Below the pieces are notes generated by a model. That model was given only the letters and a program-made list of their open reading frames with translations. It had not been told where the DNA came from and did no database searches. Positions 9,098-35,860 of a stretch of 35,860 nucleotides of DNA are shown here, one piece after another. This DNA comes from a virus. The stretch lies in IMG/VR virus record IMGVR_UViG_3300049489_001249, positions 1 to 35,860 of that record; one strand, given 5' to 3'. Every line of letters starts with the position of its first letter. Positions within the stretch are counted from its first letter, which is position 1. A program made the position numbers and the translations under genes.

Positions 9098-9607
9098 ATG
9101 GATGATTTAATTATATATAATATACAGCTTAGTAATGAAAATATTGGTAAGATTTATACCCATGACGCACCATTTTTAAATGAAAAGATAGATATAGACA
9201 GCGAATGGGAATTTTATAACATAACTACAGTTGTTTCGTTACTAGAAGAAGATTTTCACAAAGAACAAGTGTATTGTAATGGTATTGAGGTTATTAACTT
9301 TCCTATAGAAGATTATGAAATTCCAGCAGATGATAAAGCATTTGCAGAACTTGTTACTAAATTAGTTGATAAAATTAACAAAGGTGAGAACATTTCCATT
9401 CATTGTTATATGGGACACGGAAGGACCGGAGTTCTTGCTGCTATTTTATATGCTATAATTGAAGGTGTTTCTGGGGACAAATCCATAGAAAAAATAAGAG
9501 ATAACAAAGTTAATTATGTAGAATCAGAAAATCAACGAGAATATGTTAATTCTTTTGTTGATAAATGGAATAATAATGAATACATTTTTAACAGAGAGAA
9601 TACTTGA
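9098..9607 (+). CDS. Dual-specificity / tyrosine protein phosphatase
   Basis: A 169-aa Cys-dependent phosphatase. The P-loop H-C-x5-R-T is at residues 102-110 (HCYMGHGRTG), with Cys103 as nucleophile and Arg109 binding phosphate. The likely general acid is Asp72 in PIEDYEIP. The length and the layout (beta strand plus acid loop, then P-loop) match small DSP enzymes. It would remove phosphate from proteins or possibly from RNA ends or nucleotides; the substrate is not visible. A good AGGAGAGG ribosome site precedes the ATG. The 3' end overlaps the next gene by 32 nt in another frame. Confidence 0.88.
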   Translation: MDDLIIYNIQLSNENIGKIYTHDAPFLNEKIDIDSEWEFYNITTVVSLLEEDFHKEQVYCNGIEVINFPIEDYEIPADDKAFAELVTKLVDKINKGENISIHCYMGHGRTGVLAAILYAIIEGVSGDKSIEKIRDNKVNYVESENQREYVNSFVDKWNNNEYIFNRENT

Positions 9608-10085
9608 ATTATCTGGAATACCGTTAAACGAATCACAGCTTATTGATACTGGTAAAAAAGTATTTGATTCTGGTAAGGTATATTTCCAGCCGGATATTAG
9701 CAAAGAAAGTTTTATTCATTTCACATCTGAAAATAATGTCAAAAAGATAATTGGTAATAAAAGACTTAGAAGAAATAAAGATTCTTTGTTTGAATCTCAT
9801 TTTGCTGTGTCTACTTTATATGGTGATTTTATTGAAGTGGTCCAGAATCCAAAAGTTTTTAAAAGAGATTTTATTGGTGAAACACAAGCTATCTTATTTA
9901 AAACTAAACAATTACCTGAGCGTGGATATATAGAAGAAGTTTCTTTTGGAGATAGAATTGTCTATTTAACAGATGTTAAAAGAATTACTCTTGAAGAAGC
10001 AATGAACTTAATTAAAAAATCACCTATTAAAATAAGTGAAGATGATGTTGTAATTTACAAGAAAGAATTAGTGGAGAAATTTTGA
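9576..10085 (+). CDS. Peptide-tagged protein, possibly ADP-ribosyltransferase-like
   Basis: A 169-aa protein. The ATG at 9576 is chosen because it puts the shared peptide (LTERILELSGIPLNES) at the very N-terminus, as in the sister genes. PLNE|S fits the prohead-protease rule L-x-E. Residues about 46-62 read FIHFTSENNVKKIIGNK, similar to the H-x-T plus helix start of DarT/DUF4433-type ADP-ribosyltransferase folds. A Glu-rich strand (RGYIEEVSF) comes later where such folds often keep a key Glu. The ART reading is tentative. T4 packages its ART Alt in the head, which would fit a tagged cargo. It overlaps the phosphatase gene and joins the next gene by TTGA. Confidence 0.6.
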   Translation: MNTFLTERILELSGIPLNESQLIDTGKKVFDSGKVYFQPDISKESFIHFTSENNVKKIIGNKRLRRNKDSLFESHFAVSTLYGDFIEVVQNPKVFKRDFIGETQAILFKTKQLPERGYIEEVSFGDRIVYLTDVKRITLEEAMNLIKKSPIKISEDDVVIYKKELVEKF

Positions 10086-10996
10086 TACTTACAAAAAGAA
10101 TACTTGAGCTCTCTGGAATAAAGCTAAACGAATCATTCAATAATTATCAATATATTTTACCAGAAAATAGGCAACAAGCTTTGTTTGATTTTTATCTTGC
10201 TACTGTCTATTATAGAATGGACACTAAAATAAAAGATGAGGTTATTGATTTTACAGTTGAAGAAGTATTATCAGACTTATTTGAACAAGTTAAACAAGAC
10301 TTATTACCAGTAGTTGAGGAAGCAATTTATTCAGAAATGGTCTATATTATATTTAATTTAGATTTAGAAGATGCATATAAAATATTTGAAAAAAACAAGA
10401 TGGGAGATTTCTTTTTTAAATATATTGATAGTATTGTTGGCGACTCATCTATAAAAGAAGAAACTGCTTATGACACAATGAAAAAGTATAGTGATTATGT
10501 TGAAAAGATGAATAATTATGTAGAGCAGTTAAATAAAAGTAATAAATCACTACCTTCTAAAAAAAGAATACAAGCAGTAAAAGACACCGGTTATTCTTCA
10601 GAAAAAGTAATTAGTTTTATGAAAAAGCTCTTCACATATAATACTACAGCTGGAAGAACTTTTGGTGGAGAAGCTTGGGTCCAAATTTGTGATGGTTGGT
10701 TTGATTTAAAGAATTCAAGCGGTAACAAGGGAAAAAACGGAAAAATTGCAGCTATTGACCATATATATGACTTACAACACAATAGTGGCTCTGTGCTTGA
10801 TAAATCAGAAAAATTTGAAGTTGATGGTAGCCATGATTGGATAGAAAGTTCACTTGATTTTAAAAAACATAATACTAACATTTGGAAGCTATGGGATAAA
10901 TGTAGTCCTGGATTTAAATCTTTTATGGCCAAAGTTATGAAATATTCTACAGGAACTAGTTACGAAAGGGATAAAGATAAGACATTAGCTTGGTAA
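10082..10996 (+). CDS. Peptide-tagged conserved phage protein of unknown function
   Basis: A 304-aa protein starting at TTG 10082, which overlaps the previous stop (TTGA); GGAG lies 8 nt upstream. The N-terminus LTKRILELSGIKLNES carries the shared tag and an L-N-E|S site. Residues 25-160 are helical. The C-terminal part has FGGEAWVQICDGWFDL, IDHIYDLQHNSG and WIESSLDFK, motifs I have seen in unannotated phage proteins but cannot tie to a reaction. The conserved Asp-His/His-Asn pairs could bind metal. Its place among tagged genes suggests packaging in the head. Confidence 0.7.
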   Translation: MILTKRILELSGIKLNESFNNYQYILPENRQQALFDFYLATVYYRMDTKIKDEVIDFTVEEVLSDLFEQVKQDLLPVVEEAIYSEMVYIIFNLDLEDAYKIFEKNKMGDFFFKYIDSIVGDSSIKEETAYDTMKKYSDYVEKMNNYVEQLNKSNKSLPSKKRIQAVKDTGYSSEKVISFMKKLFTYNTTAGRTFGGEAWVQICDGWFDLKNSSGNKGKNGKIAAIDHIYDLQHNSGSVLDKSEKFEVDGSHDWIESSLDFKKHNTNIWKLWDKCSPGFKSFMAKVMKYSTGTSYERDKDKTLAW

Positions 10997-11013
10997 AATT
11001 TACAGGAGATTTT

Positions 11014-11211
11014 ATGACTATAAAACAAGCCAGAGAAAACATTGGTTTATTATCTGTAAAAGAATTAGAGCAGTTTATTCATCGTTGCAATCAACCAATA
11101 AGTAAAGAAATAAAAAACAAATTCATGAGAACCAAGTTAAATAAAATGATAAACGAGGATAAACTTTTTTTTGAGCAAGAGTTAATAAGAAGAAAAAACA
11201 AGACTTTATAA
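11014..11211 (+). CDS. Small helical hypothetical protein
   Basis: 65 aa. The ATG at 11014 follows an ACAGGAG ribosome site; a TTG further up (10990) lacks one. Predicted two or three helices, basic, with no recognised motif. It lies between a tagged protein and a membrane protein. Confidence 0.6.
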   Translation: MTIKQARENIGLLSVKELEQFIHRCNQPISKEIKNKFMRTKLNKMINEDKLFFEQELIRRKNKTL

Positions 11212-11218
11212 AGATAAT
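11210..11218 (+). promoter_or_regulatory. AAAGATAAT element before holin-like gene
   Basis: It follows AAAAAACAAGACTTTAT and sits 3 nt before the ATG at 11222. That ATG has no Shine-Dalgarno site, so initiation from a leaderless transcript is possible. Confidence 0.5.
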
Positions 11219-11221
11219 TGT

Positions 11222-11566
11222 ATGCATAAAAGATTAAAAGACGTATCTGAACTAGTAAAACATATTATAGCAATAGAAGTTGTTGTGGTTATAGGTTATT
11301 GTACTATTATGGGATTAAATATTCAAAAAGAATTCTGGGCTCTCTCTGGTTCAATTCTAACATATATATTTATGTCATATACACCTGGAATAAACAATAT
11401 TGTATCTAAAAGTAATATTGGTGGAGTTTTTAAGGGGATTATAGCAATTGGACTTATTGGAGTTATAAGTTATTGTACAATAAAGAATATTGAAATTGGT
11501 AAAGAGTTGTGGGGAATAATTGGTGGAGTAATTACCTTTATTTTCAATTCCAAGAATAAGGAATAA
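11222..11566 (+). CDS. Small membrane protein with internal duplication (holin-like)
   Basis: 114 aa. Two similar halves each hold a hydrophobic pair: residues about 16-50 (IAIEVVVVIGYCTIMG, then EFWALSGSILTYIF) and about 75-108 (IAIGLIGVISYCTIKN, then ELWGIIGGVITFIF). This gives four membrane spans from a duplicated hairpin, with a charged N-terminus and a Lys/Glu tail. Small multi-span proteins of this kind are often holins, which open the inner membrane for lysis. No lysozyme gene is next to it, so the role is a guess. It starts 3 nt after an AAAGATAAT element. Confidence 0.65.
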   Translation: MHKRLKDVSELVKHIIAIEVVVVIGYCTIMGLNIQKEFWALSGSILTYIFMSYTPGINNIVSKSNIGGVFKGIIAIGLIGVISYCTIKNIEIGKELWGIIGGVITFIFNSKNKE

Positions 11567-11568
11567 AA

Positions 11569-12135
11569 ATGAAACTAAGCACTATTTTAGAAGAAATATC
11601 AGATAATAGAAAGCCGTGGGAATTATCTAGAGAAGAATTTAGGAAAAAATATTCTAAGGAATGGCGGAATTTTATAAAACCAGTTGCTAAGAAAATAAGA
11701 GATAAATCAAGTGGAAATACTCCACAGAAAATAGTTGATTTTTATATTAATAAATATAAGATTTCAAAGCCAGTTACTATTGAATATGGTCAAAATTTTA
11801 CTGATAACGCAGAAGCTGAAACAGTGGCAATGGGTTCTGGTGCAGATATTAATTCTTATATTATTAAGGTTCCATATGCTGAAAACAATAACTTATCAGA
11901 TGAAGACGTTTTTACTCTTAGACATGAAATAGAACATATTCTTGATATGGAAAAAGGATTTAAATCTACTCAAAAGAAACAACAATATTCTCAAGAGGGG
12001 CTTGGTGACGATAAAATTAAAATAGGGTTACCGGGACATCATAAAGAATATGCTCAGTTTGAAACGGATTATTTACACGACCAATTATCAAAAGATAGTT
12101 CACTTAGGAGTAGTTTTGAACAAAATACTATTTGA
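11569..12135 (+). CDS. Putative zinc metallopeptidase (HExxH)
   Basis: 188 aa. Residues 119-123 read H-E-I-E-H inside LRHEIEHILDM, the zinc-binding and catalytic motif of zincins; Asp126 or the downstream GHHKEYAQFE stretch could supply the third ligand. No signal peptide or membrane segment. The N-terminus MKLSTILEEISD resembles the CCA-enzyme N-terminus here (MKLSELLESVND) and holds I-L-E|E. Possible roles are cleavage of host proteins after delivery or cell-wall peptide cleavage; the sequence does not decide. Its 3' end overlaps the next TTG start. Confidence 0.6.
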   Translation: MKLSTILEEISDNRKPWELSREEFRKKYSKEWRNFIKPVAKKIRDKSSGNTPQKIVDFYINKYKISKPVTIEYGQNFTDNAEAETVAMGSGADINSYIIKVPYAENNNLSDEDVFTLRHEIEHILDMEKGFKSTQKKQQYSQEGLGDDKIKIGLPGHHKEYAQFETDYLHDQLSKDSSLRSSFEQNTI

Positions 12136-12514
12136 AAGAATATTAGATTTAGCTGGTCAATCAAATTCTTTTAGTTCAGTTGATAATATTATGAATAAAT
12201 GGAAAGGTATTGTTAAAACTTTGTATTTATATGAAAATGAAGAAAATATAACTTTAAGCAGTATTATTATACCTAAAGAAAAGAGAAAAGAAGGTTTAGG
12301 AACAGAAATATTAAACGATATTATTGGATATGCTGATAAAGTACAAAAGAGGGTATTGCTTTCAGTTGGCCAAAAAGATGAACTTAATGGTACGACATCA
12401 AGAAGTAGGCTTGTGAATTTTTATAAACGTTTTGGGTTTATTGAGAATAAGGGTAGGAATAAAGATTTTGAAATTTCAGCAGGAATGTATCGTAACCCAC
12501 AGGAGATAAAGTGA
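12116..12514 (+). CDS. Peptide-tagged GNAT-family acetyltransferase
   Basis: 132 aa from TTG 12116, chosen because AGGAG (12106-12110) is 5 nt upstream and the protein then begins NKILFERILDLAGQ, the shared tag. Residues about 50-75 hold the acetyl-CoA pyrophosphate loop (KEKRKEGLGTEILNDII). The C-terminal LVNFYKRFGFIE and MYRNP are classic GNAT motif B features. It would move acetyl from acetyl-CoA to an amine on protein, small molecule or tRNA; the substrate is unknown. It lacks a clear L-x-E just after the tag, unlike most sisters. It overlaps the peptidase gene by 20 nt and the next gene by GTGA. Confidence 0.8.
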   Translation: MNKILFERILDLAGQSNSFSSVDNIMNKWKGIVKTLYLYENEENITLSSIIIPKEKRKEGLGTEILNDIIGYADKVQKRVLLSVGQKDELNGTTSRSRLVNFYKRFGFIENKGRNKDFEISAGMYRNPQEIK

Positions 12515-13617
12515 ATAAACAATTATTTGAAAGAATATTAGATTTAGCTGGTCAATTAAATGAAAGCAATAATGCAGAGATAAATAGTTTTGAAATTAAT
12601 TTCGATGAAACAGATATATATGGCGATGAAATACGTAAAATATTTGAGATGTTTTATGAGTTAGAATATAAATATAATACTATTACTTCACCTCATTTTG
12701 GATTTAATGGTAATCCAGTAAGGAAAGAAAATATCATCAAAATATATGAAAATAAAGCGAGAGAAGTTAATTCGTTTCTGGCAAAAACTTTTATGATAGT
12801 TTTTGAAGAATGGTTGGAAAAACATGCTTTACTAAGTGCAGAGACCTGGGCGAGAGCAAGAGTTCAAGAGACAATGGACTTTGGTTCAATAGAAGAATCT
12901 ATTGGTGCAATGGTAGGTGAATATAAGAGATATAGCGGTATGCAAGTTGAAGCAAATGAAGCATTTAGAAGAATGATTCGCTTAATAACTAGTAATATAA
13001 ATAACTATCCAGAATTTAAAGATTTCCTTGAAATATTTATTGAAGACAGAAAAGATATGTACAGAAATGACTTAACTAATTTAAAAGAGTTTAATGAAAA
13101 TAATAGCAAAAATTTTAAAACAATAAAAAAAGCAGAAGAATGGATAGATAATTTAACTATCGATGATTTTGATGCAGAAGATTTACTTTATATTGATTCT
13201 ATACAAGATTTGGTAAATTATTTTGAAAACTATAATAGCTATGAAGAAGTTTTAGTAGAAATGTATGAGAAAATTGTTTTTCCTCTTTGGTTAGATTACT
13301 GGTCCGGTCAAGGAATAGAAGAAACCAGAGAAAAAGTAGAAGAACAATTTGAAAGTTTAAAGAAATTAGAATCATTACCAATTAAACAGCAATTTGTTGT
13401 TGTTAATCTTGCTACTAATGCTGTTCATCAAACAGGTAGTATGATGGATTATTATGAGCAAAGATACGGAATAGAAAAAAGAGATTTAGATAATCTTTCA
13501 AATCAAGATGTGTCAGAATGGCAATTAGAATTAAAGGAAATAGGTGTTGTTTTCCCTGATTCTGTTAAAAAACCAGTCAAAAAAAATAAAAGAATGCTAG
13601 AATTAGCTGGCGTTTAA
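12511..13617 (+). CDS. Hypothetical protein with the LAG peptide at both ends
   Basis: 368 aa from GTG 12511, 4 nt after AGGAGATAAA. The N-terminus NKQLFERILDLAGQLNES carries the tag plus L-N-E|S. The C-terminus ends KRMLELAGV after a Lys-rich linker. The middle is acidic and helical with a QQFVVVNLATNAVHQTG stretch. No catalytic motif is recognised. Having both peptides makes it a good candidate for an internal head protein that bridges core components. A promoter-like element follows the stop. Confidence 0.7.
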   Translation: MNKQLFERILDLAGQLNESNNAEINSFEINFDETDIYGDEIRKIFEMFYELEYKYNTITSPHFGFNGNPVRKENIIKIYENKAREVNSFLAKTFMIVFEEWLEKHALLSAETWARARVQETMDFGSIEESIGAMVGEYKRYSGMQVEANEAFRRMIRLITSNINNYPEFKDFLEIFIEDRKDMYRNDLTNLKEFNENNSKNFKTIKKAEEWIDNLTIDDFDAEDLLYIDSIQDLVNYFENYNSYEEVLVEMYEKIVFPLWLDYWSGQGIEETREKVEEQFESLKKLESLPIKQQFVVVNLATNAVHQTGSMMDYYEQRYGIEKRDLDNLSNQDVSEWQLELKEIGVVFPDSVKKPVKKNKRMLELAGV

Positions 13618-13626
13618 TTTTTTTTC

Positions 13627-13656: not shown

Positions 13657-13678
13657 TCATCATAGGACATATAACTTC

Positions 13679-13697: not shown

Positions 13698-13722
13698 AAT
13701 AAACAAGTTTTATGAGAGAATA

Positions 13723-14268
13723 ATGAGTATTTTTAATAACGAAAATAAAAGAAAGAAGATTAAAGAACTAGACAAAGAAGTAATTGATATGCAATGTGAA
13801 GTTGAAAAACTAAAATTGCAGCGAGATACGATTAAACAGCAAGTAGAGCTAGAAAAAGAAAAACAAGAACATACTTTCAGACTCAAAGAACAAAAATTTG
13901 AAGCTGATAAAATTAACTGGCAAGCTGATATGAAAGCTCTTGAGAATAGACTTAGAACAGAAAGTGAAACCAAGCTTACTGAAGCTATTTCTCTTGGTAA
14001 ACTTGATAAAGAACAAGAACTTGCTAAACAGAGATATGAATATGATAAAAAAATTCAAGACATACAATCAAAACATGTTCAAGATTTTTCTCAATTAGAA
14101 TCTAAACTAGCAAAAGAATATTATGATAAGTTATATGAAGCTATGGAGAGATTTAATCGAGAAGGAACTGTAACAACTAATTTCATGTCAGATTTAGTTA
14201 AGAATGTTTTCGATAAAATACCTCCGGCAAGAATGGAAGCTAAATTTATCAGTAAAGACGAGAAATAA
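13723..14268 (+). CDS. Long coiled-coil protein
   Basis: 181 aa. Residues 8-140 are an almost unbroken charged coiled coil rich in Lys, Glu and Gln (KELDKEVIDMQ, ELEKEKQEHTFRLKEQ, LDKEQELAKQRYEYDKK). The last 40 residues (NFMSDLVKNVFDKIPPARME) look like a short globular tail. No enzymatic motif. The stop overlaps the next ATG (TAATG), so it is cotranslated with the following gene. Possibly a rod or adaptor; no firm role. Confidence 0.7.
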   Translation: MSIFNNENKRKKIKELDKEVIDMQCEVEKLKLQRDTIKQQVELEKEKQEHTFRLKEQKFEADKINWQADMKALENRLRTESETKLTEAISLGKLDKEQELAKQRYEYDKKIQDIQSKHVQDFSQLESKLAKEYYDKLYEAMERFNREGTVTTNFMSDLVKNVFDKIPPARMEAKFISKDEK

Positions 14269-14585
14269 TGGCTCCTGCTTTCGCTTTAAGTTCTAGAACG
14301 TATAACTCTGCTAATGTTAATAACTCAGCAGAGTTATACGACTATAATACTGTTACTACAACAACTGGTGGTACAACTGGTGGTACCACATTAAATCGTG
14401 ATATTTATGATGGTGCTACTAATATCAGATATTATACCAACTTTATAGTAAATAATCATGATGAGATAGTTGTACCAAAAAAACATCTTGTAGATGAGAT
14501 AATAGATTCTTTTCATTTAAGTAAATCTGATTTAGAATTAAAAAAACTTAAAGAAAAAGTTAAACAATTTTGTTTATTTAAATAA
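14268..14585 (+). CDS. Hypothetical protein, first of three with a shared C-terminal helix
   Basis: 105 aa. The N-terminal part is Asn/Thr/Tyr-rich, including a Gly-Gly-Thr-Thr repeat (TTTGGTTGGTT). The C-terminus ELKKLKEKVKQFCLFK is nearly the same as that of the next protein. Its coding DNA holds a perfect 14-bp inverted repeat near the 5' end. Function unknown; the polar N-terminus suggests a small virion or surface protein. Confidence 0.65.
   Translation: MAPAFALSSRTYNSANVNNSAELYDYNTVTTTTGGTTGGTTLNRDIYDGATNIRYYTNFIVNNHDEIVVPKKHLVDEIIDSFHLSKSDLELKKLKEKVKQFCLFK
14299..14340 (+). repeat. Perfect 14-bp inverted repeat inside a coding region
   Basis: Arms CGTATAACTCTGCT (14299-14312) and its exact complement (14327-14340), with a 14-nt loop, all in frame within the gene starting at 14268. 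No T-run follows, so it is not a standard terminator. Confidence 0.9.
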
Positions 14586-14593
14586 GAAAAGTT

Positions 14594-14740
14594 ATGGATA
14601 ATGATAATAATTTTGGTCTAGGAAAAATAACATTTGAAAATTATCCCGAATACATAATGAGATTAGTAAAAGATAAAAAATCTGAATTAGAAATAAAAAA
14701 ACTTAAAGAAAAAGTTAAACAATTTTCTTTATTTAGGTAA
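14594..14740 (+). CDS. 48-aa protein with the shared C-terminal helix
   Basis: ATG 14594 to TAA 14740. The last 54 nt (14687-14740) match 14532-14585 of the previous gene with about four differences, giving the tail EIKKLKEKVKQFSLFR. The upstream half (FGLGKITFENYPEYI) is unrelated. This supports it as a real small gene made by tail duplication. The ribosome site is weak. Confidence 0.65.
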   Translation: MDNDNNFGLGKITFENYPEYIMRLVKDKKSELEIKKLKEKVKQFSLFR

Positions 14741-14747
14741 ATTAAAT

Positions 14748-15272
14748 ATGAATAAAAAACAATCTAAAGCTATTTATGATTATTATAATAAATCCATAAG
14801 TATAGTTGATAAACCATGCGATATTGGCGAGGAACATTGGAATGGTCTAGTTTATGACGGTGAACATTGGGTTAAAAAAGAAATTGGGCTTAATATTAAT
14901 GGGAGAACTTGGGATGGTGAAAATTGGATTGAAACAAATATTTTTAATACTCTTTACTATCCCAGTCCTACTTTGGTAAACCCTATGGTAACTACTGATA
15001 ATTTGGTGGTTAATAGTTTTGATAAAACTACTACTGATGGTGTTTGTATTTCTCATAATACTATTAATCTACAAGGTAAAGTATTAATGAGTGGTTCAAA
15101 TGATGGTAATTGGAATTGGACAACTACTGATAATTCATACTGCTTACAAGATAAAATCTCTATGTTGGAATCAAAATTAGAAAGTGTTACAAAACAATTA
15201 GAAGAAGGAAACAATCTTACACCAATAGAAAAGTTAAAAAGAAAGGTAAATAATTTCTCATTAGAAAAATAA
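14748..15272 (+). CDS. Hypothetical protein with W/DG repeats and related C-terminal helix
   Basis: 174 aa. Residues about 28-65 hold repeats of the form H-W-x-G or Y/W-D-G-E-x-W (EEHWNGLVYDGEHW, RTWDGENWIE), which may form small beta hairpins. A Thr/Asn-rich middle and a coiled coil (ISMLESKLESVTKQLEE) follow, then the tail PIEKLKRKVNNFSLEK, a divergent form of the two preceding proteins' tails. It could be a small fibre or decoration protein, but this is composition only. Confidence 0.65.
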   Translation: MNKKQSKAIYDYYNKSISIVDKPCDIGEEHWNGLVYDGEHWVKKEIGLNINGRTWDGENWIETNIFNTLYYPSPTLVNPMVTTDNLVVNSFDKTTTDGVCISHNTINLQGKVLMSGSNDGNWNWTTTDNSYCLQDKISMLESKLESVTKQLEEGNNLTPIEKLKRKVNNFSLEK

Positions 15273-17714: not shown

Positions 17715-17861
17715 ATGAAAATGAAGTTAAAACGAGTAAATGTTGAAGTAAACGAAGAAGAATATCTTGAATTAAAGAAAATATTAATAGATAAAAAAAA
17801 GACATTCAGTACTTTTATCAGAGAGCATATAACAAAAGAAGTTAAAAATAGTAAAAAATGA
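17715..17861 (+). CDS. 48-aa ribbon-helix-helix protein coupled to tnpB
   Basis: KRVNVEVNEEEYLELKKILI, then a turn and FSTFIREHITKEV, fits the strand-helix-helix pattern of Arc/MetJ/CopG DNA-binding proteins. Its stop overlaps the tnpB ATG (ATGA), so the two are translated together. Likely a repressor of its own promoter (17673-17701) that limits TnpB level; this is inference. I do not recall RHH genes as a standard part of IS605 elements. Confidence 0.7.
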   Translation: MKMKLKRVNVEVNEEEYLELKKILIDKKKTFSTFIREHITKEVKNSKK

Positions 17862-19096
17862 ACAAAGCATATAAATTTAGATTATATCCAAGTAAAGAGC
17901 AGGAAATATTACTTGCTAAAACATTTGGCTGTACTAGATTTATATGGAATCAAATGTTAAATGAAAGAACTAATTTTTATAATGAAAACAAAAAAGACAA
18001 AGAAAAGTTAAGAAATCATAAATATAAAACAGAGAAACAATATAAGTTAGAATTTGATTGGATGAAAGAAATTGATTCAATAAGTTTACAACAATCAAGA
18101 ATTAATTTAGAAACAGCATATAAAAACTTCTTTCGTAATAAGAAATTTGGTTTTCCTAAATTCAAGAATAAACATAGTTCAAGAAATAGTTTTAGAACAG
18201 TTAGTGTTAATAATAATATTAAACTTGAAGAAGGAAAAATAAAGTTACCAAAGTTAGGTTTAGTTAAAATAAAACAACATCGTGAAGTAATTGGTAAAAT
18301 AAAATCAGTAACAATATCAAAATCGGCAAGTGATAAATATTTTATATCAGTTCTTGTTGAATATAATTTGGAGGTTAAATATCAAAAAGATATTAACAAA
18401 GTAGTAGGACTCGACATGAGTTTTGAGAATTTTTATGTATCAAATGAAGGTGAGAAAGCCAATCATCCTCATTGGTACAGAAAATATCAATCAAAACTTA
18501 AACGTCAACAACAATCATTAAGTAGAAAACAGAAAGGCAGTAAGAACAGAATCAAACAAAAAAAGAAAGTTGCTATCGTTCATGAAACTATATCAAATAA
18601 GAGAAATGACTTTATTGAAAAGACATCAAGAAGTCTAATTAACAGATTTGATTATATAGTTTTAGAAGATATTAACTTACAAAACATGTCTCGCTGTTTG
18701 AATTTTGGTAAATCTATTTCTGATTTAGGATTTGGTAAATTCAGAGATAGACTGCAACAAAAAGCAAATGAAACTGGAAAACAAGTTATCAAAATAGATA
18801 AATGGTTTCCTAGCTCTCAATTATGTAATTGTTGTGGTTATAAATACTCTGAACTTAAACTCGGTGAAATGAGTTGGACTTGTAAAGATTGCGGGATAAC
18901 TCATGACCGAGACATAAATGCAGCAATAAATATCAGGAATTATTTCCTAAAAAATACCGTGGGAACCACGGAATTTCAAGCCTATGGAGAGGTAAGCTCT
19001 GGTTTAATCAATAACTGGTTAAACGAAACTGACCTCGATGAAGTAGGAATAAAACATAGCCAGCTAAAACAACTGGCTAGAAGCCCTTCCCTTTAG
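17858..19096 (+). CDS. tnpB: RNA-guided endonuclease TnpB
   Basis: 412 aa, full length. N-terminal KAYKFRLYPSKEQE and CTRFIWNQMLNE are typical TnpB starts. RuvC-like catalytic residues: Asp186 (GLDMS), Glu270 (VLEDINLQNMS) and Asp352 (HDRDINAA). The zinc finger is C323/C326 and C342/C345. TnpB uses a guide RNA from the element's right end to cut DNA next to a TAM, which keeps the element at its site by prompting repair copying. All key residues are present, so it is probably active. The stop codon lies inside the right-end hairpin. Confidence 0.96.
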   Translation: MNKAYKFRLYPSKEQEILLAKTFGCTRFIWNQMLNERTNFYNENKKDKEKLRNHKYKTEKQYKLEFDWMKEIDSISLQQSRINLETAYKNFFRNKKFGFPKFKNKHSSRNSFRTVSVNNNIKLEEGKIKLPKLGLVKIKQHREVIGKIKSVTISKSASDKYFISVLVEYNLEVKYQKDINKVVGLDMSFENFYVSNEGEKANHPHWYRKYQSKLKRQQQSLSRKQKGSKNRIKQKKKVAIVHETISNKRNDFIEKTSRSLINRFDYIVLEDINLQNMSRCLNFGKSISDLGFGKFRDRLQQKANETGKQVIKIDKWFPSSQLCNCCGYKYSELKLGEMSWTCKDCGITHDRDINAAINIRNYFLKNTVGTTEFQAYGEVSSGLINNWLNETDLDEVGIKHSQLKQLARSPSL

Positions 19097-24822: not shown

Positions 24823-26343
24823 ATGAATAAGAATCTGTTTAATAGAATATTAGAGTTATCTGGATTATATGAAGACTTAGACACAATGAGGGATAAGAGT
24901 TATCAAGATATTCCAAGAGAAGAATTTAAAGAAATAGTTTTACTAGACCCAACTGCTACAGCTGAAAGACCGGGTAAATATTTTAAAGATTTAATTAACC
25001 TACATAAGAAAGGTAAAATAACTAACTTATATAAAGATGGTTTAAAACACATAATGTCAAAAGCATTAGATGATGTTATTTTATCTAAAAACATATCTTG
25101 GCTATTTAATCTTTATGTCAGTGGTAATCTAAAAACAGAAGATTTGTATAAAGCTTCCCTATATTTAGACAAATATAATACTTTTAAAAAAGAAATTGGA
25201 AAACCATTAAATAGTTACAGAAATCTACCTCAACTTTTCACCGATGTAGAACAATACTTAGAAAAAGAAAAAGAAGTAGAAGTTTCAGAAAAGAATCAAG
25301 CTAAAAAAGAAGCTAAAAAAGTATATGAAGATGACGAATGGCTTGTAGTTATTCCAGAGACACATCGAGCAGCTTGTATATATGGAGCTGGTACACAATG
25401 GTGTACAGCTGGAAAAAATGATTATTATTTTAACGATTATAATAGCGAAGGACCACTTTACATATTAATTAATAAACAAGAAAAAGATAAAGAAGGAAGA
25501 CAAGTAAAATATCAATTTCATTTTCCAAGTCAACAATTTATGGATGTTAAAGATAGACAAATAAATAAAGAATCCCTTTTTAATGATTTAAATGATTCAA
25601 TAAAACAATTTTTTATAGATGTTAATTTTAGTAAGTTAAAAAACTTTGATAAAGAAACTAATACTATAACTTTTGAAGCAGATTTTGATACACTAGTAGA
25701 TGGTTTCGATAGAGAATATCGTAGCTTTGCTGAAAATGTTCTAACGGGAAATACATCTGGATATTTTGAGATGGAATCAGAAAATGTAAAAGACATTCTT
25801 AAATATCTTGAAATTGATGAAGAAAATAAAAATAATATAGAGAGCTATTTGGATAAAAACTATCCAGAATGGCGAGCTCAAAATGAAGACTTAGAAGATT
25901 TTATTAATACTTCTTCATATGCTAATGATGTTATAGATGCTATTGTTTCTGCTAATCGAAGAGCAAGAGAACATGCTGCCGAATCAGAAGCTTATAATGA
26001 TATAATAAATTCTATAGAAGATTATTTTGGACCGTTTAAGTTTATAGATGATGGAGTAAGGTTAAACATAGATGTAAGTAATAACTATAATCTATTTTTT
26101 GCTCCTTTTATTGATTTAGGTGAATATTGGAGTGCATTAGATGATAGACCTCTTAATTATTCTGAACCCTATAATGGTTATGACGGTAGTATAGATGATA
26201 GTGACTTTAATGAAGCACTTGCAGAAACTATTAATGAACTTCCGGCAGTAAAAAGAGGTGTAAATCACCCAGACCAATTAAGATTTGACGGAATGGAATC
26301 AGAAAGAATATTATTCTTAGCTGGAGTTAAAAAACTCGTATGA
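24823..26343 (+). CDS. Peptide-tagged large protein with WCTA motif
   Basis: 506 aa. N-terminus NKNLFNRILELSGLYED holds the shared tag and L-Y-E|D. C-terminus has ERILFLAGVKKLV, so it is tagged at both ends. Residues about 175-215 read VVIPETHRAACIYGAGTQWC then TAGKNDYYFNDY and GPLYILIN, a conserved module I know from phage proteins with no proven activity. The rest is acidic and helical. It lacks a ribosome site and starts 4 nt after an AAAGATAAT element. Probably head-packaged cargo (inference). ATGA overlap with the next tagged gene. Confidence 0.75.
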   Translation: MNKNLFNRILELSGLYEDLDTMRDKSYQDIPREEFKEIVLLDPTATAERPGKYFKDLINLHKKGKITNLYKDGLKHIMSKALDDVILSKNISWLFNLYVSGNLKTEDLYKASLYLDKYNTFKKEIGKPLNSYRNLPQLFTDVEQYLEKEKEVEVSEKNQAKKEAKKVYEDDEWLVVIPETHRAACIYGAGTQWCTAGKNDYYFNDYNSEGPLYILINKQEKDKEGRQVKYQFHFPSQQFMDVKDRQINKESLFNDLNDSIKQFFIDVNFSKLKNFDKETNTITFEADFDTLVDGFDREYRSFAENVLTGNTSGYFEMESENVKDILKYLEIDEENKNNIESYLDKNYPEWRAQNEDLEDFINTSSYANDVIDAIVSANRRAREHAAESEAYNDIINSIEDYFGPFKFIDDGVRLNIDVSNNYNLFFAPFIDLGEYWSALDDRPLNYSEPYNGYDGSIDDSDFNEALAETINELPAVKRGVNHPDQLRFDGMESERILFLAGVKKLV

Positions 26344-26843
26344 ATAAAAAATTAATTAATAGAATATTAGAGTTATCTGGGTTAGTTGAAGATAAAGACA
26401 CTACTAATGATGAATATTATACCGCAATAGAACAATATTATAGTCCAAGGTTGTTAGACATAATTAAGTCTGGCGAATCTATGGCCAAACGTATGACTGG
26501 AAGCGGTTCTTTAATAACAAAAATAAGTGATAATGATAATGTGATGGTTAGATGGGTAGAAGGAAATAATACTCTAGTTATATTGGGTTTAGTTAGTAAA
26601 ATAGGAAAGATTTTCAAAAGTGATTTACCAGATATTTCAAAGTGGTCAGACTATTTGATAAAAAAGATTGAAAAAGGATTTACTATCTATACTAGTCCAA
26701 ATGATTTGTCTATGCCTATTCTCAATAAGATATTAAAAAAAGCTGATAAAATGGGTATTCCTATTGAGAAAAATGTAATGTCTGGCTCATTTTCTGATTC
26801 TGGACAAACATGGACCACTCTACAAATCAAAATTAATTCTTAA
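26340..26843 (+). CDS. Peptide-tagged hypothetical protein
   Basis: 167 aa, ATGA-coupled. N-terminus NKKLINRILELSGLVED holds the tag and L-V-E|D. A compact alpha/beta domain follows (VMVRWVEGNNTLVILG...KGFTIYTSPNDLSMPIL), which has the feel of a GNAT-like or related fold but lacks clear motifs. Likely cargo. Confidence 0.7.
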   Translation: MNKKLINRILELSGLVEDKDTTNDEYYTAIEQYYSPRLLDIIKSGESMAKRMTGSGSLITKISDNDNVMVRWVEGNNTLVILGLVSKIGKIFKSDLPDISKWSDYLIKKIEKGFTIYTSPNDLSMPILNKILKKADKMGIPIEKNVMSGSFSDSGQTWTTLQIKINS

Positions 26844-27482: not shown

Positions 27483-28028
27483 ATGACTTGCATAATAGGC
27501 TTTTTAGACAAAAAGAACAGGAAAATGTATATTGGTGGAGACACGGCTTTAACTATTCCAGAAGACGGCGGAAAAACAAAAATAAAAGGATTTAAGGTGT
27601 TTAAAAAGGGAGAATTCTTACTTGGAATAAGTGGTTCATTATCTATTTTAAATATTATAAAGTATCGTTTTTTACCCCCAGTTTTAGATAATAAGCATAA
27701 AATAGATAATTATCTAAATGTTATTTTTTTTGATTATGTAAAATCGTTATTATTAGATAATATTGGTACAGATTCTGGTACTGTAACGGTTTTATATAAA
27801 GGAAGACTTTTAAGATTTGAAGTAATTAACGGTATAGATTTCTTTATAGAGGAAAGTGATGGCGTTTTATCTGTAAGCGGAGCAACTGATATAGCAATTG
27901 GAGTGATGGAACTTGGATTAAAATATAAAATTCCAATTAAAAAGCTAATAAGAGAGTCAATTATCATTTCTTCACATAATAATGCCTTTGTAAATGAAAA
28001 AATAAAGATAATTGAGATGAAATTCTAA
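27483..28028 (+). CDS. Proteasome-beta/HslV-like Ntn hydrolase
   Basis: 181 aa. M-T-C-I-I-G at the start leaves Thr1 as the catalytic nucleophile after Met removal. IGGDTALT gives the conserved Asp (Asp20), FKVFKKGEFLLGISGS the conserved Lys (Lys38) and the SGS loop, and SGATDIAIGVMELG a later family feature. HslV is about 175 aa, so the length fits. It would be a self-contained ATP-independent chamber protease or need a host unfoldase such as HslU; no ATPase is nearby. The gene lies behind an AAAGATAAT element. Confidence 0.85.
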   Translation: MTCIIGFLDKKNRKMYIGGDTALTIPEDGGKTKIKGFKVFKKGEFLLGISGSLSILNIIKYRFLPPVLDNKHKIDNYLNVIFFDYVKSLLLDNIGTDSGTVTVLYKGRLLRFEVINGIDFFIEESDGVLSVSGATDIAIGVMELGLKYKIPIKKLIRESIIISSHNNAFVNEKIKIIEMKF

Positions 28029-30187: not shown

Positions 30188-30191
30188 GGTA

Positions 30192-31722: not shown

Positions 31723-32410
31723 TAAAAATAACCATTCAATCTTAGAAAGCTTTTTTTTTAAAATTAAAGAAGAAAATCCAGATATTATCATTATTGCTGG
31801 AGATATTATATCAAGTAATCAATACGAATGGGAAAAAGTATTTGGACTATTGAGATATATCATAGAAAAAATACCAGTATTTATAATAAAGGGAAATCAT
31901 GACTTTTGGAATGAAAGTGAATCATTAAAAATAATTACCTATAGCCAATTAGAGTTATATCAATCAATTATTTTAAATAAGTATAATATTCATTATTTAC
32001 AAGAAAAGGCTTATGAAGACGAAACTATAAAAATACAAGGATTTAATGGTTGGTATAAATATATTCCATATAGTAATGATTCTAATTACTTAATTAATAA
32101 ATATGATAAAGATTGTCATAAGTTTTTTATGAAAATTTCCAATGATAACTTTTATAATGTCTTAGACGGTGTATCTAAAAAAAAGATTAATATTCTAGTA
32201 ACACATTTTAATTGTATATCACAATTTGATGATGAAAGTAATTATAAAATGCATGGCGATTTTTCCTATATGGATTTTATTAAAGATAATTTCGATTATC
32301 TTATTTTTGGACATACTCATAAAGAATTAGATATTATGGTTGATAAGTGTCATGTTTTAAACCCTGGCTCAGATTATAACAACCCAAAATATAAAATCAT
32401 AGGAATATAG
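31688..32410 (+). CDS. Calcineurin-like metallophosphoesterase
   Basis: 240 aa. D-x-H (SDLH), GDII, GNHDFW, a later THFNC and GHTHKE supply the two-metal site of this superfamily. Substrates range from nucleotides to RNA ends and DNA. Follows the exonuclease in an overlapping frame, so cotranslated. Confidence 0.9.
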   Translation: MKLLLTSDLHYNKNNHSILESFFFKIKEENPDIIIIAGDIISSNQYEWEKVFGLLRYIIEKIPVFIIKGNHDFWNESESLKIITYSQLELYQSIILNKYNIHYLQEKAYEDETIKIQGFNGWYKYIPYSNDSNYLINKYDKDCHKFFMKISNDNFYNVLDGVSKKKINILVTHFNCISQFDDESNYKMHGDFSYMDFIKDNFDYLIFGHTHKELDIMVDKCHVLNPGSDYNNPKYKIIGI

Positions 32411-32411
32411 G

Positions 32412-32759
32412 ATGAAATTAATTTATTTAGCTGGTAAGTATTCTGGTAATAGTTATGCTGAAGTGGAAAATAATATACAATATGCTGAATCTGTGATGAT
32501 TAAATTACTTCTTGCTGGTTGGAATGTGTTTTCTCCACATAAAAATACTAGCCACTTAGATAGATTTAAAGATTCTATTAAAGAATTTACATATGATTTC
32601 TTTATGAAAAGATGTTTTGATATGATAGATAGATGTGATGCTATATGTTTTCTTGAAAACTGGGAGTCATCTCCCGGCTCAAAAGAGGAACTAGAATACG
32701 CTAAAAAGAAGAATATGACTATTTTCTTCATAAAAGAAGGAATTCCAACAATAAACTAA
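32412..32759 (+). CDS. DUF4406 / nucleoside 2-deoxyribosyltransferase-like protein
   Basis: 115 aa. YLAGKYSG at the start, NNIQYAESVMIKLLLAGWNV, SPHKN, then MIDRCDAICFLENWESSPG and EELEYAKK match the DUF4406 branch of the nucleoside deoxyribosyltransferase fold. May handle nucleotides; activity not proven for this branch. Confidence 0.85.
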   Translation: MKLIYLAGKYSGNSYAEVENNIQYAESVMIKLLLAGWNVFSPHKNTSHLDRFKDSIKEFTYDFFMKRCFDMIDRCDAICFLENWESSPGSKEELEYAKKKNMTIFFIKEGIPTIN

Positions 32760-32777
32760 TAAAAAACTTACTTAAAC

Positions 32778-32786
32778 AAAGATAAT
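32778..32786 (+). promoter_or_regulatory. AAAGATAAT element before tagged gene
   Basis: Preceded by AAAAAACTTACTTAAAC; ATG 32790 is 3 nt downstream, no ribosome site. Confidence 0.5.
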
Positions 32787-32789
32787 TGT

Positions 32790-33272
32790 ATGTCAAAAAT
32801 AAATGAAATAGAAAGAATAGCTTTTCTATCTGGCGTTAATTATACTATAGAGAAAAAACAAGTTTTTATTAAAAAAGAATTACCAAAAGTAAAGCTTATT
32901 GAGACAGTTGAATACAAAGATAAAATAAAAAAAGTAATACCAACTCTCATAGATGACTCAGATAAAGATAGCCAGATTGTAGAAAAAGATGGAAATGATG
33001 CAATTGGAGAAATAACTCTAATTATTACAAAAGATTCTATTTCAGAAACTAAATATAATGCTCAAGAAATTGCCTATGAAATTAAAGAAAACAAACAATT
33101 CTATAAAGATATGATTGATATTAAAGAAATATCTTTTGGTAAAGATGTTAAAATAAATGAATTATTTGTTGGAATAGAAAATGATAATGTAATTATTAAA
33201 GTATATTATTATACAACGGTAGAAGATAAAAAAGAAAAAAGTGAATTAGGCGAATATCTTAAAAAACTTTAG
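32790..33272 (+). CDS. Hypothetical protein with divergent LSG tag
   Basis: 160 aa. N-terminus INEIERIAFLSGVNYTIEKK keeps R-I-x-x-L-S-G. The remainder is charged, mixed alpha/beta, without motif. It lacks a clear L-x-E after the tag. It lies behind an AAAGATAAT element like other tagged genes. Confidence 0.65.
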   Translation: MSKINEIERIAFLSGVNYTIEKKQVFIKKELPKVKLIETVEYKDKIKKVIPTLIDDSDKDSQIVEKDGNDAIGEITLIITKDSISETKYNAQEIAYEIKENKQFYKDMIDIKEISFGKDVKINELFVGIENDNVIIKVYYYTTVEDKKEKSELGEYLKKL

Positions 33273-33281
33273 GAATAAATC

Positions 33282-33632
33282 ATGAAGCTATCCGAACTAC
33301 TTGAATCAGTAAACGATAAAACTTTAGAAAATGCTACAGAAATAGTTAGAAAACTTCAAGATGCTGGTTATAAAGACAGTTATTTTGTTGGTGGCTATGT
33401 AAGAGATAAATTATTGGGATTAGATAAAGCTAAAGATATTGATATCGCTACTTCTGCTAAACCAGAAGAAATTAAAAAAGTTATAAAAGAATTTATACCA
33501 CAAGCAAAGTTCATAGAAGTAGGTGAAGCGTTCAATATTGTTATGGTTATAATTGATAGCGAACAATACGAAATTGCAAGTTTTCGCTCTGATAACTATA
33601 GAATACCCAAATTTGTAAGAAAAATAAAATGA
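33282..33632 (+). CDS. cca: CCA-adding enzyme, N-terminal fragment of split gene
   Basis: 116 aa. FVGGYVRDKLLG (GGxxRD) and DIDIAT with the catalytic Asp52 and Asp54 form motif A of class II tRNA nucleotidyltransferases; VGEAFNIVMV and EIASFRSD follow. The native protein should continue to RRDFT, which is found in the gene at 34533. The last residues (NYRIPKFVRKIK) look like insertion-derived sequence. The N-terminal 14 residues (MKLSELLESVND) are an unusual extension. GGAATAAATC before the ATG gives a weak ribosome site. Confidence 0.9.
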   Translation: MKLSELLESVNDKTLENATEIVRKLQDAGYKDSYFVGGYVRDKLLGLDKAKDIDIATSAKPEEIKKVIKEFIPQAKFIEVGEAFNIVMVIIDSEQYEIASFRSDNYRIPKFVRKIK

Positions 33633-34540
33633 TTATATACTATTTGAAAAATAAAATAAATAATAAATATTATGTTGGAAGAACAACTCAGACTCTTAAG
33701 AATAGAATAGGGGCTCATTTTATAAAAGCTAAAAAAAAAAGATATAAAATAGAAAAAGCAATTTTTAAATATGGTATAAATAATTTTGAATATGGTATAT
33801 TATGTATATGTAATGATAATTTTTCTATATTCTTTGCTGAAAGATTTTATATAAAAAAATATAATTCTCTTCTAAAGGGATATAATTGTACGGAAGGAGG
33901 TGTAGGAGGAGCATTCTCTAAAGAATCTAGGGATAAAATAAGTAAGTCCAATAAAGGCAAGAAAGCTTGGAACAAAGGACTAACAGCAAGTACAGATGAA
34001 AGGGTTAAGAAGTATTCTGAAAAAAGAAAAAATAAAAAATTAAGTAATGAATCTAAGCTTAAAATGTCTATTGCTTCTAAAATACGAGCAAATAAGCCAG
34101 AAAATATTATTAAATTTAAAGAAAATAATCCTTCTAAAAACAGAGAAAGCGTTGAGAAGGGTAGAAAAACAATTATTGAAAATAAGTTATTAGCTGGAAA
34201 AAATAATCCCAGATATAAAGAAGTAGATATAGAAAAATTAAAAAAACTTTACTATAATGATGTTAGACTTATAGAAATACAAAAAGAATTAGGTATTTCT
34301 GAAACAACTTTAACTAAAAGAATAAAAGACAACAACTTAAGTAGAAAGAAAAGATATTTAAATAGAAAACTAGACCTGAATGGTAAAAATAATCCAAGAT
34401 GGAATAATGAAATAGATGAAAAGCAAATTACCAATCTATTTGCAAAAGGTCTATCTGTTAGTAAGATATCTAAAATTTTAGATATATCGCAATCAACTTT
34501 ACGGAGAAGGATAAAAATTTTAGGATTAAAAAATGAATAA
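33629..34540 (+). CDS. GIY-YIG homing endonuclease
   Basis: 303 aa. IIYYLKNKINNKYYVGRT holds the GIY-YIG-type motif with the conserved Arg soon after (LKNRIGAHF) and Glu in FFAERFYI. GKKAWNKGLTAS is a NUMOD3-type DNA-binding motif. Two helix-turn-helix segments at the C-terminus (IQKELGISETTLTKRI; SKILDISQSTLRRRI). It overlaps both CCA fragments (ATGA at its start, 8 nt at its end), leaving no space for a group I intron. Confidence 0.93.
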   Translation: MIIYYLKNKINNKYYVGRTTQTLKNRIGAHFIKAKKKRYKIEKAIFKYGINNFEYGILCICNDNFSIFFAERFYIKKYNSLLKGYNCTEGGVGGAFSKESRDKISKSNKGKKAWNKGLTASTDERVKKYSEKRKNKKLSNESKLKMSIASKIRANKPENIIKFKENNPSKNRESVEKGRKTIIENKLLAGKNNPRYKEVDIEKLKKLYYNDVRLIEIQKELGISETTLTKRIKDNNLSRKKRYLNRKLDLNGKNNPRWNNEIDEKQITNLFAKGLSVSKISKILDISQSTLRRRIKILGLKNE

Positions 34541-35735
34541 AATAGAAACATATGATAAAAATAATCCAGAACATAATGATAAAACTAAATACGAAGTTGT
34601 AGAGTGGGAAGATGATTTTACAGGCAGAAAACCAAATGAAGTATTTTTTACTAATTCAGAAGAAGATGCTAAACGAAGAGATTTTACTGTAAATGCTTTA
34701 TTCTTTGACCCAATCACTGGTGAACATATTGATTACGTTGGTGGTAAGAAAGATTTAGAAGAAAAGATATTGAGGGCAATTGGTGAGCCAGCTGAACGTT
34801 TTAACGAAGATTATTTGCGGATGATAAGAGCCGTAAGATTCTCTGCACAGAAAGGTTTTAAGATTGAGGAAAAAACCTATGAGGCTATAAAACAAGCAGC
34901 TGGAAATATTAATAAGATTTCTAAAGAAAGAATTAAAGATGAAATGGAAAAAATCCTTTCTTCTAGCAATCCTGGCGATGCTTTAGAAGTATTAGCAGAT
35001 ACTGGATTACTACAAGAATTGTTTCCAGAAGTTGCTGAGTTAGTAGGTGTAGACCAGAATCCAAAACATCATCCTGAAGGAAATTCTTTTATACATGTTA
35101 AAAATGCCTTAAATTCTTCTGAAAATGATTTAGTTCTTAGATGGTCACTTCTTTTACACGATATAGGTAAAAAAGAAACTACCAGAATAAATCCTAAAAC
35201 AAATGCTTTATTCTCTCCTGGACATGAAGCAGTTTCTACTAAAAAAGCAGAAGCTATTTTAAATAAATATAAGTTCGACTCTAAAATGAAAAAAGATATA
35301 CTTTGGTTAATTGAAAATCATGGTAAGTTTATGTCATGGGATAACATGGGTGATTATAAGAAAAAAATAATTGCTTCACATCCTTTATTTCCAATGCTCA
35401 TAAAACACTATGAAGCAGACAGAAAATCATCAATGAACGATGAAATAACGGCCAGTGTAATAGAAAAGATGAAAAACTATAATAAATATCTTGATGATTT
35501 TAAAACAGATTCTGATAAATTTCAACAGATGAATAAGTTTAACATTATAACTGGTGATGATTTAAAACAAGCTCCTTTTAATTTTAAACCTGGTCCTATT
35601 ATGAAAGAAATTCTTGATGATGTAAAAGAGAAATATATAACTGGCGTTTTAAAAGATAAAGAAGCAATACTAGAATATCTTAAAAAGAAATACGCCAAAA
35701 GAATAAAAGCTAATTCTCCTAATTTTTTTATTTGA
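34533..35735 (+). CDS. cca: CCA-adding enzyme, C-terminal fragment of split gene
   Basis: 400 aa. AKRRDFTVNALFFDP (motif B), YVGGKKDLEEKILRAIG, NEDYLRMIRAVRF (motif D), then an HD domain (LLHDIGKKETT...GHEA) and ENHGKF. Together with the 116-aa piece it covers a full class II CCA-adding enzyme with an HD domain. It has its own ATG with TAGGA upstream. If both parts bind each other the enzyme may still work. It adds or restores the 3' CCA of tRNAs. Confidence 0.92.
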   Translation: MNKIETYDKNNPEHNDKTKYEVVEWEDDFTGRKPNEVFFTNSEEDAKRRDFTVNALFFDPITGEHIDYVGGKKDLEEKILRAIGEPAERFNEDYLRMIRAVRFSAQKGFKIEEKTYEAIKQAAGNINKISKERIKDEMEKILSSSNPGDALEVLADTGLLQELFPEVAELVGVDQNPKHHPEGNSFIHVKNALNSSENDLVLRWSLLLHDIGKKETTRINPKTNALFSPGHEAVSTKKAEAILNKYKFDSKMKKDILWLIENHGKFMSWDNMGDYKKKIIASHPLFPMLIKHYEADRKSSMNDEITASVIEKMKNYNKYLDDFKTDSDKFQQMNKFNIITGDDLKQAPFNFKPGPIMKEILDDVKEKYITGVLKDKEAILEYLKKKYAKRIKANSPNFFI

Positions 35736-35751
35736 AAAAACCAACTATATT

Positions 35752-35760
35752 AAAGATAAT
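35752..35760 (+). promoter_or_regulatory. AAAGATAAT element before last tagged gene
   Basis: Preceded by AAAAAACCAACTATATT; 16 nt before ATG 35777, which also has a GAGG site. Confidence 0.5.
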
Positions 35761-35776
35761 ATAGTGAGGATAAAAT

Positions 35777-35860
35777 ATGAACTTAAAAGAAACAAATAGG
35801 ATGCTTGAGCTTGCTGGACAGAAGCCTCTTATAGAAGAAAAGATGACACCGGCAGAAGCT
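35777..35860 (+). CDS. Peptide-tagged protein, cut by window end
   Basis: The first 28 codons, ETNRMLELAGQKPLIEEK after MNLK, show the shared tag and L-I-E|E. The rest is beyond the window. Confidence 0.75.
   Translation, partial: MNLKETNRMLELAGQKPLIEEKMTPAEA

Follow-up and report, generated by a model that had tools for sequence, protein, structure and literature searches.

A peptide resembling a scaffold tail stands at the ends of unrelated proteins in an uncultured T4-like phage and probably serves to load them into the head

Eight proteins of an uncultured T4-like phage, with bodies unrelated to each other, start with versions of one short peptide. The scaffold of the same phage ends in this peptide. 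The sequence next to it is usually a putative site for the prohead protease, and similar peptides are found at protein ends in many other phages. The tag, as it is called here, is probably a head-targeting propeptide, which would mimic the docking tail of the scaffold and be cut off by the prohead protease. The window is the whole stretch of DNA analysed, the 35,860 nucleotides of IMG/VR record IMGVR_UViG_3300049489_001249. All features below are on its plus strand.

Head genes of the T4 type are present in the window, namely those for the portal, the S77 protease and gp23. At 1..2394 lies the C-terminal portion of a gp20-type portal protein with an intein inside, judging from ORF translation and gene order. 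The prohead core serine protease (gp21 type, Peptidase_S77) is at 4337..5023 (Pfam PF03420 E=1e-22, phrog_207 E=2e-48), and is presumed to be the enzyme that removes the tag. The major capsid protein (gp23 type) is at 6527..8008 (Pfam PF07068 E=2e-81). The scaffold (ORF 5510-6496) ends in QRMRELAGLI, with the tail RMRELAGLI at 6467..6493. Its identity as gp22 type was set by its position and this tail, and a tblastn search with it gave no phage relatives. A small prohead-core-like protein (ORF 3846-4328) similarly ends in KRIQHLAGV (tail RIQHLAGV, 4302..4325), and has LTE followed by a serine upstream of its tail.

The strict form of the motif is R[IM]xxL[AS]G. A scan of all six frames of the window delivers 12 matches, all on the plus strand, and 12 out of 12 at the ends of ORFs. 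Eight are N-terminal and four C-terminal (4302, 6467, 13591 and 26305), and two of these four sit on the prohead core, that is, on the gp22-type scaffold and the core protein. The original prediction had listed the eight N-termini, all of which are indeed there, as carriers of a new, N-terminal signal. It missed the four C-terminal copies; the peptide is not confined to protein starts. The signal does differ in sequence from that of T4, but apparently it is the tail of the scaffold itself and not something unrelated.

The motif consists of few residues, all common ones, and composition or plain chance could make short hydrophobic protein starts look alike in a genome rich in AT. Complete genes hold 11 of the 12 matches; the 35777 ORF runs off the window. 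Against these 11, composition-preserving shuffles of the 59 plus-strand genes (11,348 amino acids) lead one to expect 0.0225 matches, or 0.0035 terminal ones, and no shuffle out of 2,000 had more than 2. In 462,025 amino acids of other T4-like phage genes, the strict motif occurs 17 times at a C-terminus, once at an N-terminus and once in the interior. The shuffle test and this count refute chance as an explanation, which leaves it a negligible probability.

The 9576 protein starts with MNTFLTERILELSG, and its tag plus putative protease site, MNTFLTERILELSGIPLNE before a serine, spans 9576..9632. This protein had been called ART-like, which found no support in searches or in structure prediction; given that the predicted structure has a pLDDT of 44, the call is neither supported nor excluded. 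The 10082 protein has a TTG start and begins with MILTKRILELSG (with putative site MILTKRILELSGIKLNE before a serine, 10082..10132). Its homologues in LR756511 have different leaders, yet these likewise end in [IL]xE. The 12116 protein, also with a TTG start, carries the tag MNKILFERILDLAG (12116..12157) on a GNAT domain, without [IL]xE after it. This GNAT domain, rightly recognised in the original prediction, has up to 57% identity to domains of phage proteins annotated DarB-like or PLxRFG.

Two proteins in the window bear tags at both ends. One is the 12511 protein, which has a GTG start, MNKQLFERILDLAG at its beginning (with putative site MNKQLFERILDLAGQLNE before a serine, 12511..12564) and RMLELAGV at its C-terminus (13591..13614). 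Searches with tblastn gave no phage relatives for this protein, nor for that at 9576. The other is the 24823 protein, which starts with MNKNLFNRILELSG (with putative site MNKNLFNRILELSGLYE before an aspartate, 24823..24873) and ends in RILFLAGVKKLV (26305..26340). Its WCTA module holds up as a shared phage domain, and its relative in PA5oct is a structural protein detected in virions by ESI-MS/MS. The 12116 GNAT domain (through the DarB-like and PLxRFG proteins) and the 24823 protein (through PA5oct) are putative cargo that has domains in common with virion-packaged proteins, a trait of the virion-ejected polyvalent effectors of the DarB-like kind.

The 26340 protein starts with MNKKLINRILELSG (with putative site MNKKLINRILELSGLVE before an aspartate, 26340..26390). 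At 32790..32834 the tag reads MSKINEIERIAFLSG, again without [IL]xE after it, and of all window tags this one is nearest to MKKQINEIKRMQQLAG, a tag from an aquatic set that is described below. The 35777 protein starts with MNLKETNRMLELAG (with putative site MNLKETNRMLELAGQKPLIE before a glutamate, 35777..35836). AGGAG, GGAG or GAGG, which resemble ribosome-binding sites, are found upstream of 10082, 12116, 12511 and 35777. Once the tags are taken off, the eight bodies have no significant similarity to each other (best E about 0.07). This agrees with the claim that the downstream domains are unrelated, and the eight share no extended homologous domain to which the peptide would belong.

The 12116 and 12511 tags have 33 identical nucleotides in common (12129-12161 and 12524-12556). 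Such near-identity of neighbouring tags would fit a DNA or RNA element, like a translation operator or recombination hotspot, moving from gene to gene and translated by accident. This was rejected, as synonymous positions differ among the other copies, the same peptide appears in frame at C-termini, and no Rfam family matches. The gp22 tails moreover keep the peptide across great divergence, and such an element is very improbable.

The site beside the tag went unnoticed in the original prediction. In the window, [IL]xE follows six of the eight N-terminal tags, where the control has 14%; 12116 and 32790 are the two without. It follows 26 of 27 tags in the aquatic set (control 6%), and 91 of 94 in an IMG/VR scan for the sister tag. 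Among 56 proteins with a scaffold-type tail, 42 have [ILV]xE at most 12 amino acids before it (control 47%), and the distance from E to R peaks at 6. For the scaffold tail of the window itself, the nearest site is 13 residues off, not 6. In T4, gp21 cleaves after L/I-X-E, and IPIII with Asp at position 10 is packaged yet uncleaved (PMC9026906). Because the tag matches the scaffold tail and usually adjoins a putative protease site, its role is very probably that of an address label for head loading. The idea of T4-like capsid targeting by a different sequence is supported by the unrelated bodies, the head genes, the protease consensus sites and the scaffold and core tails alike.

The peptide may instead be an exosite, read by the prohead protease to mark its maturation substrates, while cargo enters the head in another way. 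It is true that [IL]xE nearly always adjoins the tag, in both orientations, and that scaffold, core protein and cargo would all count as substrates. The T4 consensus (L/I-X-E), however, is described as surprisingly short and exosite-free (PMC9026906). The 12116 and 32790 tags, and several scaffold tails, have no site nearby, and the entry of cargo is left unexplained. An exosite is considered unlikely.

The ORF upstream of gp23 has the tail R-[MIFLW]-x-x-L-A-[GN]-[IL] close to its C-terminus in some 50 divergent T4-like contigs from IMG/VR, and also in isolates. RM378 has LERIKRLAGL and Mel-JY01 has VERMKKLAGIVK, with a looser likeness in PA5oct, XacN1 and Atu_ph07 (LKRLAGIKK). The scaffolds of T4 (RB51), KVP40 and S-CAM3 lack the tail. 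In Flavobacterium phage immuto, an isolate, two proteins start with MKKQILSEQF[KR]RMQ[FK]LAGIITES and the scaffold ends in SEQVSRWQKLAGIIK. One relative, whose capsid protein is 73% identical, has the tail at the end of its scaffold and at the C-terminus of one other protein. Full scans of two phages with the scaffold tail (252 kb and 124 kb) gave no convincing N-terminal tags.

The sister tag MKKQINEIKRMQQLAG was found in 94 copies in IMG/VR, using a pattern that contains no start codon. An in-frame ATG nevertheless lies 1-28 residues upstream in 93 of the 94, and within 5 in 89. The 86 bodies that carry this tag fall into 60 clusters, so these too are unrelated, and at least 15 of the contigs also have a scaffold-type tail. 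With the scaffold tails of some 50 contigs and these 94 copies, versions of the peptide recur at protein ends in many phages; the original prediction had proposed such a search. DNA-pattern scans of IMG/VR, narrow as well as broader, gave no match to the window's own wording. A profile built from the aquatic N-terminal tags matches only weakly in the window, so the two wordings are related by pattern and not close by sequence.

Another profile was built solely from the scaffold tails of other phages, with the window left out. This short model scores the 35777 tag best (i-E 0.0013), with the window's scaffold tail at 0.0027; 12511 and 12116 are weak (i-E 1.5-1.6) and the remaining N-terminal tags negligible. 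It is conceivable that the tag directs proteins to a different compartment or assembly (tail, baseplate, replication body), and that its likeness to the scaffold tail is convergent, since short helical peptides serve many assemblies. Yet the sole identifiable carriers that are not cargo are the scaffold and the core-like protein beside the protease. The short model does pick up N-terminal tags, most of them weakly or negligibly, and outside the head a prohead protease site next to the tag would have little purpose. Such a destination is quite improbable. Amphipathic-helix character of the tag segments is suggestive only: the moment averages 0.50 versus a background of 0.33, with 3 of 12 segments average or below.

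The preferred reading, head loading by scaffold mimicry, would work as follows. The gp22-type scaffold of this T4-like group has a short, helix-like C-terminal end, R-[hydrophobic]-x-x-L-A-G-[I/L]. Through it, the scaffold probably docks in the growing prohead, to the shell or the core. The phage would have copied this tail onto the N-terminus, and sometimes the C-terminus, of unrelated proteins, which could then enter the prohead core via the scaffold-tail contact. The gp21-type protease would cleave at the [IL]xE that separates tag from body, whereupon the tag would be lost. The body would stay in the head and presumably enter the host together with the DNA on ejection. For a phage known from sequence alone, we infer the docking partner, cleavage, packaging and ejection.

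The balance tips slightly towards a wider claim, that in a large part of the T4-like phages the scaffold's C-terminal tail is a portable address label for either protein end, a copy of which would bring co-assembly into the prohead and release by the protease. Tail mimicry is not universal, since the N-terminal leaders of Atu_ph07 and LR756511 are unlike the scaffold tail.

In engineered scaffold fusions of P22, a scaffold-derived segment carries cargo into the procapsid. The logic proposed here is the same, but in P22 it is laboratory engineering, and here it would be natural. If the label is indeed portable, it is the natural counterpart of such cargo loading, and injected effectors could be read straight from phage metagenomes. 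For most phage genes no function is known, and which products are injected into the host at infection usually comes to light only when the virions of isolates are analysed by proteomics. Should a dozen residues and [IL]xE be a mark of head cargo, about 60 uncharacterised protein clusters from uncultured T4-like phages would turn into candidates for injected effectors or anti-defence proteins. It would also mean that T4-like targeting signals can originate as copies of a scaffold tail, and would provide a short tag for loading proteins into non-T4 phage heads.

The T4 CTS sequence is of the MKTYQEFIxE type. The window leaders do not match it, so the tag is not placed in the CTS sequence family; the two sequences are unrelated. 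The CTS traits that the window does have are a shared short N-terminal peptide, L/I-X-E (as a putative site), and an S77 protease, scaffold and gp23. In T4 too, a short N-terminal leader with an L/I-X-E end sits on unrelated internal proteins (IPI, IPII, IPIII, Alt). Internal proteins of T4 are co-purified with gp22, and processing of Alt takes place at both of its ends, which recalls the doubly tagged window proteins (PMC9026906). Unlike the CTS, the window peptide is also on scaffold and core protein, and can be C-terminal; the T4-type scaffold (RB51) has no tail of this kind.

The N-terminus of P1 DarB sends a reporter into the head, for which 30 residues suffice and 9 do not (PMC9024508). 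This is an N-terminal signal as well, and DarB-like-annotated proteins contain the GNAT family that is tagged in the window. Unlike the window phage, P1 has no separate scaffold, and no consensus emerged among its Dar N-termini. The head propeptides of SPN3US and phiKZ are N-terminal, and a prohead protease removes them at A-X-E, with a preference for Ser just behind the cut (PMC10052503). Unlike the window tag, many are long (111-254 residues), and the passages on them describe no shared short tag. The literature outside subscription journals gave these propeptides of SPN3US and the targeting sequences of T4 and P1, and no description of the present tag.

Atu_ph07 has at least 10 consecutive genes with a common short N-terminal leader, M[KR]WxQLxE, ending in LxE. 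This leader is unlike the phage's own scaffold tail, and many of the genes look like paralogues. The next gene encodes a GNAT protein related to that at 12116, with the leader MRLFQLLE.

A six-frame search of the window finds 12 matches to R[IM]xxL[AS]G, all 12 on the plus strand and all 12 at ORF ends. Eight are N-terminal and four C-terminal. The original prediction was that eight otherwise unrelated proteins open with this peptide, as a candidate capsid-targeting tag. All eight N-termini it named do carry it, and the bodies without their tags have no significant similarity. The four C-terminal copies were not on its list. In complete plus-strand genes of the window the motif is observed 11 times, versus 0.02 in shuffled proteins, and the genes of related phages, 462,025 aa in all, hold only 1 protein-interior match.

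The 35.9-kb IMG/VR fragment has a T4-type head cassette. This consists of a portal with an intein (based on gene order and translation), a core-like protein of small size at 3846, a prohead protease of the S77 type (4337, Pfam E=1e-22), a scaffold, so assigned by its gp22 position (5510), and the gp23 capsid protein (6527, E=2e-81). Immediately after the capsid gene there is an HNH endonuclease ORF (8110-9051), with a similar ORF at the same location in a related phage, L002.

Of the C-terminal copies, one ends the scaffold (HDSLQRMRELAGLI) and another ends the core-like protein (KDLKRIQHLAGV). The 12511 and 24823 proteins have the peptide at both termini, which parallels T4 Alt, itself processed at both ends (PMC9026906). 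The tag DNA at 12129 and 12524 is identical over 33 nt, so it can be copied between adjacent genes. Other copies diverge at synonymous sites, and selection therefore appears to act on the peptide. Separately, two adjacent proteins at 14268-15272 have similar C-terminal peptides, KLKEKVKQFCLFK and KLKRKVNNFSLEK, and an exact 33-nt repeat is found at 14539 and 14694.

The ORF directly upstream of gp23 has the same ending in some 50 divergent T4-like contigs, and also in isolates. The scaffold of Rhodothermus RM378 ends in LERIKRLAGL and that of Microcystis Mel-JY01 in VERMKKLAGIVK, while PA5oct, XacN1 and Atu_ph07 have a looser form. The tail is absent from this ORF in T4 (RB51), KVP40 and S-CAM3. 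A profile built solely from scaffold tails of other phages, window excluded, gives its top ranks to tags of the window. The 35777 N-tag leads (i-E 0.0013), followed by the window scaffold tail (0.0027) and by weaker matches to the remaining C-terminal tags and two N-tags.

A first IMG/VR scan with the degenerate pattern MKKx..EIKRM..LAG found contigs where two or three different genes open this way. Against bias, the scan was repeated with the start codon left out. This gave 94 occurrences; for 93 an ATG in the same frame lies 1-28 residues upstream (exactly five residues in 78, within five in 89). Of the tagged bodies, 86 fall into 60 similarity clusters, and at least 15 of the contigs also have the scaffold-type C-terminal tail. 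Two tagged proteins occur in the isolate Flavobacterium phage immuto_2-6A, whose scaffold tail SEQVSRWQKLAGIIK is almost identical to its own tags, SEQFRRMQKLAGIITES. A 250-aa protein of another phage (G026; L149, minus strand, start 3338) has the full tag twice, N-terminally and internally ahead of a second body; it resembles a fusion of two tagged genes.

The T4 gp21 consensus is L/I-X-E (PMC9026906). Among the tagged window proteins, 6 of 8 have a putative site of this type, [IL]xE, within eight residues after the tag (control 14%); among aquatic IMG/VR proteins with sister tag wording the figure is 26 of 27 (control 6%). In the larger IMG/VR set this is 91 of 94, the next residue usually being Ser or Asn. 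Proteins with the C-terminal tail have the mirrored order: [ILV]xE is within 12 residues before the tail in 42 of 56 (p = 2e-5; the proteins are Glu-rich, with an expectation of 47%), and the E-to-R distance peaks sharply at six. The window scaffold is an exception, with VLTE/E (slash for the presumed cut) 13 residues off, as is its L002 relative. In either orientation, a cut at the putative site would part tag from body.

By function the tag is probably a capsid targeting sequence, a kind known from T4 and P1. It differs from the T4 signal in sequence, can be at either protein end and coincides with the scaffold tail. Such coincidence was not found reported in the targeting-sequence literature examined. 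As a general idea, scaffold-tail mimicry is a more novel reading than capsid targeting as such.

Next to the observed location, scaffold-tail likeness, statistics and spread of the tag, we infer a docking partner, cleavage, packaging and ejection. By its sequence pattern, the peptide would form a short, glycine-capped helix; helical moments of tag segments are suggestive only. Scaffold, core protein and cargo would all dock in the growing prohead through it, and the prohead protease would subsequently release the bodies.

The 12116 GNAT has 44-57% identity to domains of large phage proteins with the annotation DarB-like or PLxRFG. Its Atu_ph07 relative, the 63rd gene, has the leader MRLFQLLE/T. 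It adjoins and follows at least ten consecutive genes (L204/L208, ~39.5-50.6 kb), all with M[KR]WxQLxE starts, in wider form M[KR]W-x-[QD]-L-x-E. Many of these have a YRGM motif, suggestive of ADP-ribosyltransferases. All are inside the CDS 31-76 cluster, for which 29 proteins are given as detected in virions, a figure for the cluster as a whole (PMC6102473). The PA5oct relative of 24823 is annotated as a structural protein, with detection by ESI-MS/MS. Another PA5oct protein, which starts with MFNINDILRLAGVQAVKES, is likewise MS-detected.

For the 10082 body there are two matches in LR756511, with leaders different from its tag, MVREFVSWVKKKRLDE/G and MLESFIGWIKNINE/V. Both leaders terminate in [IL]xE just ahead of the homologous region. 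Relatives of a tagged WYL_2 protein (G027) in other phages align solely outside the tag. From the Atu_ph07, LR756511 and WYL_2 comparisons, similar cargo thus occurs with differing leaders.

Several proteins of LR756511, a 595-kb phage (L199, L003), have another common leader, F-x-x-W-[VIF] then [IL]xE, apparently its own targeting peptide. Within the window, 11569-12135 starts with MKLSTILEE and 33282-33632 with MKLSELLES. These short LxE-type leaders, comparable to MRLFQLLE of Atu_ph07, may be a second head-targeting class in this phage.

The tRNA nucleotidyltransferase gene (33282-35735) is interrupted by a GIY-YIG homing endonuclease-like ORF (33629-34540); no Rfam intron was found there at gathering threshold. 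A lone TnpB-like (IS605-type) ORF is at 17858-19096, with no transposase partner seen nearby. Finally, 27483-28028 encodes a small protein (MTCIIGFLDKKNRKMYIGGDTA...) that resembles a proteasome/HslV-type Ntn-hydrolase subunit.
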